Origin: Phycisphaerae bacterium
GTDB lineage: Bacteria > Planctomycetota > Phycisphaerae > UBA1845 > PWPN01
Direction: 5' to 3'
Assembly (NCBI GenBank): GCA_012729395.1
Contig: JAAYDF010000326.1
Coordinates: 1 to 36,885 of the forward strand
Length of the DNA stretch: 36,885 nucleotides
Each line of letters starts with the position of its first letter. Position 1 is the first letter of the stretch. The notes beneath the pieces are model-generated. The model searched no databases and had not been told where the DNA came from. It worked only from the letters and a program-made list of their open reading frames with translations. This document shows positions 9,314 to 12,280 of this stretch, piece by piece. Made by a program: the position numbers and the translations under genes.

Positions 9314-12280
9314 TTAAGTGCGGCGGGTCGGTGCACGCAGGGCGCGGAGAGTGCGGTCGAGCGTCAGGTCGATGCTGAAGTGGTCGGTGACGGTTTGGCG
9401 GCCGGCCTGACCCATGCGGCGGCAACGCTGGGGATCGCGGATCAGCTTTTCGAGGGCGTCGGCGAGATCCGTGGGTGCGAAGCTGGGCAGCAGGCAGCCG
9501 TTGTGGCCGGGGATGATTTGCCGGGCGGCGCCGTCGGTGGGTGTGCCGACGACCGGGCGCTCGCACGCCATGGCCTCGGCGAGGGCCAGGCCGAAGGATT
9601 CCGTCAGGCTGCACAAGGCGAAAATGTCGAGCGCGCTGTAGAAGGCGGGCATATCGTCGACGAAGCCTGCGAAATGCACCGCGTCGGTGATGCCTCGCTG
9701 CTGGGCGAGGTTGGCCATGTCGGCTCGATCGGGGCCGTCGCCGGCGATGACGAGTGAGCAGGGCACGCGGCGCTGGCGGAGAATGCCGACCGCCTCGATG
9801 AGCAGGTCGATGCCTTTGCCGGCCACGAGCCGGCCGGCGGTGCCGATGACCGCGGGGGCGGCGTTGGCGGCGCCAGTGTTGGGCGAGTCGGTGTTGGCGG
9901 AGTCGGGCAACGACCATTGCCGACGCAGGGTTTGTCGGCCGGCCGGCGAGAAGCGGAACTCGTGCAGGTCCACGCCGTGCGGCACGACGTGGATGTGTGT
10001 CGGGTTCACCCCCTGCCAGCGGGTGATGCGCCGGCCGTCCTCCTCGTTGAGTACGATGACCGCGGTCGCGGCGGCGGCGGCGAGGCGGTGGCGCAGGGCT
10101 TGGGGGACGCGCCAGCTTTGCAGGCCCTCCATGCGTCCGCCGAACCATTGCGGCCGCTGGCGGCGGTGGTCGCGGGCCTCGACCATCTGGTGAACCCAGA
10201 CGACGGGGATGCCCGCCCAGCGAGCGAGCCAAGGATAGAGCCAGAACCGCGGTCGGCCGCAGGCGTTGATGACTACGCCGTCGGGTCGGTGTGTGGCCAG
10301 CATCTGGCGAAACGCCCGAATCATCCCACGTAGGCTGCGTGTCTGCTCGGGCGTCGCCAGAAAGGGTGTCAGGAACCTTTTCGCGTCTGAAGGCTGGGCG
10401 GTCAGCGCGAGCTGTGCGGCCGCCGCCTCGAAAAAGGTTCCTGACACCTTTTGTGGGGCCCAGTGGAGGTGGGCTTGCATGTCCCGGCGCTGAGCGGCGC
10501 GGATCATGGCCAGGATGTAGCGTTCCGCGCCACCGAAGCCGGGTGCATCGCTGACGAACGCCAGCCGAAAAATGGTGTCAGGATGATTTTTTAGGTGAAT
10601 AAACTCTCGGTTATTCACCTGAAAAATCATCCTGAGACCATTTTTCGACCCAGAGGGTGTCAGGAACCTTTTTGCGGGGCGCATCTCAACGCAACCGCCC
10701 AGCGGTGTAGTTCGGCCACTCTTGCCTGTACCCGCAAAAAGGTTCCTGACACCTTTAGGGCTGACAGCGTTTGTGAGCGTGTCGGCGAATTGGGCGGCGA
10801 GGGTTTGGCGGTCGTAGGCGTCGAGGCGAGGCCATGGTCGGGTGGGCCAGTGGTTGCCGCTCAGGTAGTTGGCGGCGATGCGTTCGATGGCGTTTTCGAC
10901 CTGGTGCGGGTCTTCCATGGGCACGACGGCGGAGGCGCCGGCGTTGGAGGCGAGGGCGGCGGTCTCCGTTTGCGGCGGTGCGAGCATAAGCAGATGGGTC
11001 GGCAAGGCCAGAAGCTCGAAGAGCTTGCCGGGGATGCACTGCCTGGTGTGCCGACAGTCGGGCACCAGGACCACGGAGCAGGCTGACTCGGCGATGAGCC
11101 GGATGACGGCGGCGTGATCGAGGTAGCCCGCCAGTCTCATCCAGGAGGGTTTGGCCTCCTTCCAATACCGCTGCTGCTTTGCGTCGAGCGTGCCGGCCAC
11201 AACAAGCCGCAGCCGCCCCTGCCATTGCGGGTGTTTGGCGAGCACGCGGCTGATGGGCTCGACGATGCGGCTCAGTTCTCGCCGTCCGTAGAATGCCCCA
11301 GCCGCCACGAAGACGCACTCGGATGGCTTGTTGACATATTGCCCGGCCAGCGCGGTCTGCACGTCGTCGCGATCGAAGCCATTGGTGATGGCCCGCACGT
11401 CTTGCGGTGTGCGATGGGGGTAGCGGGCCAGCAGATCCTCGACGAGTGCCTCGCAGGTGGTGACGACCATGGCCGCCCGTCGCATGACCTGGCGTTCGAG
11501 TCGGCGCATGATCTGGGCGTGATGACCGTTTCCGCTCGCCCAATCGAAATCGCTGACGAAGGGATCGCGTACGTCGGCGACCCAGGGTAGGCCGGTCGCG
11601 TGGGCGATGCGCAGGGCGACTTGGTGAGCGACGACCGGTGGGCCGGTGGAGACGATCACGTCGAAGGGCGTTGTGCGATGTCGTGCGAGAGCGGCCCGCA
11701 CCGCGGCGGCGATCCACAAGGACGAGCCATCGCCGAGGCCCAATCGCTCGGCCCAGCGTGCGAAGCGCCAGAAGAAGCGTTCCTCGATCCAGGCGGGCGA
11801 CCAGGCTGCTGTATGGCCGGCACCGGGCTTGGGTTCATCGCGGCGAAGCCATCGCAGGAAATCGCCGATTCGCCCGGCAAGGCAGGCTGGTTCGAGACCT
11901 CGCACTCGATGTACGCGGGTGTCGGTTGGGAGGTCGGCCATCAGCGAGGGATCGGACCAGGGGAATCGTTGGTGCCCGGCGGCCAGCACTTCGACCTGCC
12001 AACCGACGGCCGGCAGGTACTTGACGAGTTTCGCCGCCCGCTGAACGCCACTGCCGCCGGTTGGAGGGAAGGTGTAGCTAATAAGAAGCGCCCGGCCGCC
12101 ACCACCGCCGCCTGATGTGGTAACGGCCGGGGCATGTGCGATCCATTCCCCCCATGTGCCGGAAGGCGACCCGCCGACGGGAGCAGGCTCACTTGCTCCC
12201 TCCGGCGTCCACGGCCGCTCGTTCAGCGGTTTGGCCGTGCCCGGCAACCGGAATATCGGAACTTCAAGGCCGCAACTCAT
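9314..12280 (-). CDS. Tandem glycosyltransferase fusion (GT4-GT4) containing palindromic inserts
   Basis: A single 988-residue frame encodes two GT-B fold glycosyltransferases. Residues about 63-505 form the first (RALLISYTFPPTGGSGVQR ... PGKLFELLALPTHLLML). Residues about 572-985 form the second (RLAFVSDAPGFGGAERYIL, IGTAGRLVAGKGIDLLIEA, SLTESFGLALAEAMACERP with the GT4 EX7E region). Residues about 509-571 between them are encoded by two palindromic DNA elements, and residues about 611-639 by a third. The first 60 residues are low-complexity (including GGGGGGR) and precede the first beta strand. GAGG lies 7 nt before the ATG, which overlaps the TGA of the methyltransferase upstream (ATGA). 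The protein should act at the cytoplasmic face, transferring sugars onto a lipid-linked glycan; donor and acceptor are unknown. Independent re-initiation for the second domain cannot be excluded, but its internal ATG near 10630 has no good Shine-Dalgarno sequence. Confidence 0.88.
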   Translation of the reverse strand: MSCGLEVPIFRLPGTAKPLNERPWTPEGASEPAPVGGSPSGTWGEWIAHAPAVTTSGGGGGGRALLISYTFPPTGGSGVQRAAKLVKYLPAVGWQVEVLAAGHQRFPWSDPSLMADLPTDTRVHRVRGLEPACLAGRIGDFLRWLRRDEPKPGAGHTAAWSPAWIEERFFWRFARWAERLGLGDGSSLWIAAAVRAALARHRTTPFDVIVSTGPPVVAHQVALRIAHATGLPWVADVRDPFVSDFDWASGNGHHAQIMRRLERQVMRRAAMVVTTCEALVEDLLARYPHRTPQDVRAITNGFDRDDVQTALAGQYVNKPSECVFVAAGAFYGRRELSRIVEPISRVLAKHPQWQGRLRLVVAGTLDAKQQRYWKEAKPSWMRLAGYLDHAAVIRLIAESACSVVLVPDCRHTRQCIPGKLFELLALPTHLLMLAPPQTETAALASNAGASAVVPMEDPHQVENAIERIAANYLSGNHWPTRPWPRLDAYDRQTLAAQFADTLTNAVSPKGVRNLFAGTGKSGRTTPLGGCVEMRPAKRFLTPSGSKNGLRMIFQVNNREFIHLKNHPDTIFRLAFVSDAPGFGGAERYILAMIRAAQRRDMQAHLHWAPQKVSGTFFEAAAAQLALTAQPSDAKRFLTPFLATPEQTRSLRGMIRAFRQMLATHRPDGVVINACGRPRFWLYPWLARWAGIPVVWVHQMVEARDHRRQRPQWFGGRMEGLQSWRVPQALRHRLAAAAATAVIVLNEEDGRRITRWQGVNPTHIHVVPHGVDLHEFRFSPAGRQTLRRQWSLPDSANTDSPNTGAANAAPAVIGTAGRLVAGKGIDLLIEAVGILRQRRVPCSLVIAGDGPDRADMANLAQQRGITDAVHFAGFVDDMPAFYSALDIFALCSLTESFGLALAEAMACERPVVGTPTDGAARQIIPGHNGCLLPSFAPTDLADALEKLIRDPQRCRRMGQAGRQTVTDHFSIDLTLDRTLRALRAPTRRT
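10365..10448. repeat. Palindromic element C, inside the second GT4 domain
   Basis: The 17-nt arm GGTGTCAGGAACCTTTT (10365-10381) is perfectly complementary to AAAAGGTTCCTGACACC (10432-10448), with a 50-nt loop. In the gene's frame the arms read KVSGTFF and KRFLTPF, and the whole encodes about residues 611-639 in the variable N-terminal part of the second glycosyltransferase. It shares its arm sequence with element A. Confidence 0.9.
10567..10646. repeat. Palindromic element B, at the GT4-GT4 junction
   Basis: The arms 10567-10602 and 10611-10646 pair over 36 bp with two mismatches, around an 8-nt loop (ACTCTCGG). The arm begins GAAAAATGGTGTCAGGATGA, so its GGTGTCAGGA head is shared with elements A and C but the rest differs. 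It is read in frame as NGLRMIFQVNN ... HLKNHPDTIFR, immediately before the native start of the second glycosyltransferase domain. Confidence 0.92.
10656..10753. repeat. Palindromic element A, at the GT4-GT4 junction
   Basis: GGTGTCAGGAACC followed by TTTTTGCGGG (10656-10678) is perfectly complementary over 23 bp to 10731-10753, with a 52-nt loop. It lies 10 nt from element B and is read in frame as KGVRNLFAG ... RPAKRFLTPSG, immediately after the natural C-terminus of the first glycosyltransferase. Confidence 0.92.

Follow-up and report, generated by a model that had tools for sequence, protein, structure and literature searches.

Element C, a palindrome that is read in frame within the second of two glycosyltransferases encoded by a 988-codon ORF, is probably a non-autonomous terminal-repeat dimer of a RAYT/TIRYT-type transposase, which would have entered the gene as a replacement of native sequence with the reading frame kept by chance. 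The window analysed was the whole of contig C307 (36,885 nucleotides), from a Phycisphaerae assembly of 5.74 Mb in 370 contigs, and the features concerned are listed in Table 1. C encodes residues 611-640 of the 988-residue product, and its two arms are inverted copies of one 17-mer, GGTGTCAGGAACCTTTT, which was found in 27 exact copies genome-wide, against 0 for the reversed sequence used as a control. As single-stranded DNA, C, B and A gave fold z-scores against shuffles of -7.7, -13.7 and -7.3, respectively. The first-pass annotation had described a palindrome read in frame within the glycosyltransferase and sharing its arm with A; both arms were located, the ORF was open throughout, and the 17-mer was present in C and A alike. 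That annotation had counted three palindromes with the same arms, which holds for C and A and fails for B, the arm of which is of another type. The proposed limits of the insert, KVSGTFF to KRFLTPF, were confirmed, with the correction that LATPEQ separates KRFLTPF from TRSLRG.

Table 1. Positions of the repeat elements, of the reading frames that contain them and of an arm-flanked transposase unit.
Feature	Sequence	Coordinates	Strand	Description
ORF, 988 codons	Window	9314..12280	-	N-terminal GT-like part (residues ~43-513), linker of A and B, GT4 glycosyltransferase (residues ~571-988)
Second glycosyltransferase as modelled	Window	9317..10630	-	Taken from the ATG inside B (10630); predicted GT-B fold
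Element C	Window	10365..10448		Inverted arm pair with 50-bp spacer; read as an in-frame part of the second glycosyltransferase
Left arm of C	Window	10365..10381	+	GGTGTCAGGAACCTTTT; minus-strand reading KRFLTPF
Spacer of C	Window	10382..10431		Encodes EAAAAQLALTAQPSDA; similarity to other spacers not above noise
Right arm of C	Window	10432..10448	-	Identical 17-mer; reading KVSGTFF
Element B	Window	10574..10639		TGATTTT arm type (GGTGTCAGGATGATTTT); near-perfect hairpin
Element A	Window	10656..10753		AACCTTTT arm type, as in C
Transposase unit with inverted repeats	Locus L106	9351..10096		Y1_Tnp match over cut-off

The effect of C on the enzyme was assessed against nine relatives of the same family, none of the same genus, which possess the second glycosyltransferase. 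The span that runs from GGAE to the GR within NACGR was exactly 83 residues in the eight full-length relatives and apparently one residue fewer in the alignment of the ninth (L053), as compared with 94 residues here. Since C encodes 30 residues and yet the span has grown only from 83 to 94, about 17-19 native residues would have been lost, and C appears to have put its own 30 or so in their place, with breakpoints that are approximate. The earlier claim of about 29 added residues thus gives way to a net gain of 11 and to a replacement, as the fixed length in the relatives indicates. AlphaFold models, each built from only ten sequences and therefore weak in fine detail, were obtained for this protein and for an element-free relative (L048). 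In the latter the site was occupied by a helix (49-57) and a strand (61-64) with pLDDT ~85-88, while the model of the present enzyme had an element-coded helix (66-78) and no proper strand at pLDDT ~50, the strand at 61-64 of the element-free model being absent at the C site. Outside this site the modelled fold was GT-B, with HepE (4xsu) as the best PDB match. The segment replaced by C is predicted to be a helix plus a strand belonging to the N-terminal Rossmann domain. The suggested structure check for a surface loop thus placed C where a confidently modelled helix and strand are expected, and a simple 29-residue surface-loop insertion was rejected on the fixed 83-residue length together with both models.

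The exchange of a structured helix-strand unit for a low-confidence segment raises the question of whether the gene is dead or impaired, in which case the open frame would be a transient state following a recent insertion. The insertion may indeed be recent, because the arms of C are still exact, and such a fate would be compatible with the dimer origin of C that we prefer. It is nevertheless somewhat unlikely, as the 988 codons contain neither stops nor frameshifts, the catalytic GT4 domain is intact and the catalytic region is conserved with the relatives.

A further possibility was that the two arms had been inserted separately around native sequence, with the spacer representing the protein's original segment. 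At 11 residues (33 bp), the net gain is near the 14 residues coded by two arms, spacers vary between copies of the element, and FEAAAAQLALTAQP looks similar to FDSAKEAGVAVTCVP by eye, which made this bracketing idea appealing in an alignment. The spacer was therefore shuffled and its alignment to the relatives scored, with arms either kept or removed. No similarity of the spacer peptide to the nine palindrome-free relatives was detectable (p = 0.24 in the shuffle test when the arms were kept, 0.76 when they were removed), whereas a positive control in which arms were grafted into the relatives gave p < 0.05 for each of the nine at the best register and detected native sequence in nearly all cases. 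The spacer is thus not recognisably native, and the native strand was not formed at the C site in the model; we consider the bracketing idea improbable and have rejected it. The same test bears on the possibility, raised in the first-pass annotation, that the segment is conserved in homologues without the palindrome: the relatives' segments showed no similarity to the spacer, and the insertion was not refuted.

Genome-wide, C belongs to a large family. The degenerate arm GGTGTCAGGANNNTTTT occurs in 134 exact genomic copies (control 0), and at least 53 complete pairs, in which the 10-nt cores are 35-65 nt apart, are present in the genome, a looser definition giving 76 elements in the 1.28 Mb sampled. 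Three arm types were recognised, TGATTTT, AACCTTTT and AACCTTTG, with the common core TGTCAGGA. Per-position conservation of the arm core GGTGTCAGGA was 96-100% in the two ACC types and 88-100% in the TGAT type. The base immediately outside the arm depended on type, being T in 63 of 100 TGAT arms and A in 41 of 46 ACC arms, as would be expected if each arm were itself a small stem. The elements folded as hairpins with z between -7 and -14. Pairs with the exact AACCTTTT arm were also found across phyla, in Planctomycetota, Alpha- and Gammaproteobacteria and one Syntrophobacteria genome. Rfam returned only sub-threshold microRNA models, on the B hairpin, and among the matches listed in a literature search on the arm sequence there were only unrelated papers.

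The spacers, in turn, were mostly unrelated; shared sequence was seen in one group of eight, one group of four and two pairs, one of which is probably a single element that overlapping contigs share. About a third of the spacers were good hairpins alone (fold z < -3). As the arms are identical between copies, even across phyla, and most spacers are unrelated and many hairpin-forming, it could be envisaged that the transposase flanks local hairpins with arms, or picks up a new spacer with each move, instead of moving a fixed unit. We hold this to be highly doubtful, and element C itself lends it no support.

At contig ends of this genome (G000; loci L214-L233) we also observed a repeated sequence ending ...CCGCACGGCAGTACCATTC, probably an insertion sequence, with 34 exact copies. 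Of 20 junctions examined, 16 placed it within a repeat arm, to one side or the other of TGTCAGGA; it is apparently a target-specific element, and the assembly also breaks at its copies, its body being missing from the contigs. One copy (L224) adjoins GGGGACAGGCACTTTTTT, which fits the GGGGWSAS motif published for TIRYT repeats and perhaps represents a further repeat family.

A likely source of the elements is a transposase gene (745-757 bp) bounded by TGATTTT-type arms, which was found on contig C260 of G000 and in the relatives G007 and G009 (L106, L180, L181, L182). Its Y1_Tnp match scored 42.6 bits, and the best NCBIfam match was NF047646, REP-associated tyrosine transposase, with 56-63 bits where the cut-off is 80. 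For arms of the type found in C, a Kiloniellales genome (L197) has two AACCTTTT pairs flanking such a transposase gene; in the present genome a transposase gene with two intact arms of this type was not found, and contig C122 has a degenerate AACCTTTT-type arm on one side only. In all five copies examined (L106 9355-10053, L180, L181, L182 and L098) the transposase gene ends KSS-stop within its own terminal repeat. Because the same kind of arms flank the transposase, the elements are most plausibly interpreted as inverted, non-autonomous dimers that belong to it.

C would accordingly be named an inverted terminal-repeat dimer (REPIN-like; TIR dimer) of the RAYT/TIRYT-type HUH tyrosine transposase in the genome. 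From what is known of the family, the transposase would recognise single-stranded arm hairpins, and C is likely to have moved into the glycosyltransferase gene as one hairpin-forming unit, probably of single-stranded DNA. The swap of some 17-19 codons for about 30 element-coded ones may have been a single event, or an insertion and a separate deletion. Survival of the frame would be a matter of chance and survivorship, with no frame-sensing mechanism.

Elements A and B stand apart from C in their position. A starts at the point where the first glycosyltransferase of the relatives ends, and B directly precedes strand beta-1 of the second, the site of the start codon in the relatives, which indicates that the stop and start normally found there are covered by the two elements. 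Most relatives have the two glycosyltransferases as separate adjacent genes. A and B would then be intergenic copies of the ordinary sort, located where two tandem glycosyltransferase genes meet, and their arrival would have removed the stop and the start to leave one continuous ORF. The predicted product is either a fusion or the second enzyme from the predicted start ATG in B. In one relative (G006; L051) both glycosyltransferases lie in a single open frame without any element, so that fusion of the pair may have more than one origin.

The family as a whole avoids genes. Within the 1.28 Mb of stretches counted, nearly all of which were picked for elements or transposases and some of which may overlap, 8 of the 76 elements lay inside ORFs predicted by a simple gene finder, against a coding fraction of 0.82 (binomial p ~6e-42). 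These eight were A, B and C, and five others at ORF ends or in dubious extensions. Pfam analysis of other in-gene copies, from G000 and elsewhere (L124, L134, L169, L119, L198, L204, L205, L208) yielded no clear mid-domain case; L124, considered as a mid-domain copy, was rejected since Pfam domains flank the element on both sides. A histidine kinase of G011 (L087) was also set aside, its single arm-like match being without the outer A/T end and possibly due to chance. About 36% of the combinations of element, strand and phase were stop-free, so that, with a one-in-three chance of a frame-preserving length, an open frame would be kept in about 12% of random insertions.

Several predicted genes run into an element and cover its first 13 nt (L109 8856, L115 1441, L137 9565, L148 9458, L158 4390 and others), and the stop codon is apparently element-supplied, because the TGA in arms of the TGATTTT type falls within these 13 nt. 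Stop codons provided by REP ends have been described for GTAG REPs (PMC3733652).

Three in-frame elements in one gene had been taken to suggest selection for protein-compatible insertion. All three do lie in one open ORF of 988 codons with an unbroken GT4 catalytic domain, and elements kept for useful or tolerated linker peptides have been proposed for the Rickettsia palindromic elements, but such selection is very improbable here, given that the family is depleted in genes, that A and B lie at a gene junction which is fused without elements in G006, that C is the sole clear mid-domain case and has replaced a core helix and strand, and that openness by chance stands at about 12%.

Comparison with known systems places C in a published kind. 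REP dimers inside ORFs encode 20-30 residues, sometimes two to a gene, and TIRYT transposases with inverted repeats on both sides, repeats that are also found as dimers and clusters, have been named in genomes that include the planctomycete R. baltica (Di Nocera et al. 2013, PMC3733652). As in these TIRtron/TIRYT systems, a RAYT-like transposase gene is associated here with inverted repeats unrelated to GTAG REPs, and these repeats are also present at other sites in the form of dimers, here the 53 complete pairs. Many of the published repeats, however, carry GGGGWSAS, which is common and not universal, in place of which GGTGTCAG is found here. In REPINs the ends are conserved and the spacer less so, with compensatory changes (Bertels and Rainey 2011, PMC3116915). 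The present elements resemble them as mostly extragenic inverted doublets with a conserved ~16-mer and a variable, hairpin-forming spacer, with arms near 100% identical; their link to a RAYT is a putative one. In contrast to REPINs, a GTAG-type tetranucleotide was not seen beside the arms, where the flank consensus was AAAAWGGTGTCAGGA. Given the lack of such a foot and a transposase score under the family cut-off, C was not filed strictly as a REPIN.

The intragenic REPs (PMC3733652) and the Rickettsia palindromic elements likewise are palindromes read in frame in ORFs. Rickettsial REPs, however, carry a CGTC tag, none being present in the arm consensus here, and are often found in genes, whereas intragenic copies are rare in this family and C replaces native sequence. 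With IS200/IS605 the transposase shares the HUH single-tyrosine (Y1) core, the NHWH and CRYVEAN motifs being readable in its sequence; the element ends here are inverted repeats, in contrast to that family, and the REP-associated branch fits better. Within the TIRtron/TIRYT group, a C-terminal extension of the helix-turn-helix type marks subclass 2.1 (PMC6006769).

REP dimers within genes, like TIR dimers, have thus been published before, and C belongs to that kind. What it offers is a clear case of a hairpin element that replaces part of the core domain of an enzyme in frame, measurable against element-free relatives of fixed length, and with it an abundant non-GTAG arm family is documented in Planctomycetota, in Alpha- and Gammaproteobacteria and in a Syntrophobacteria genome.
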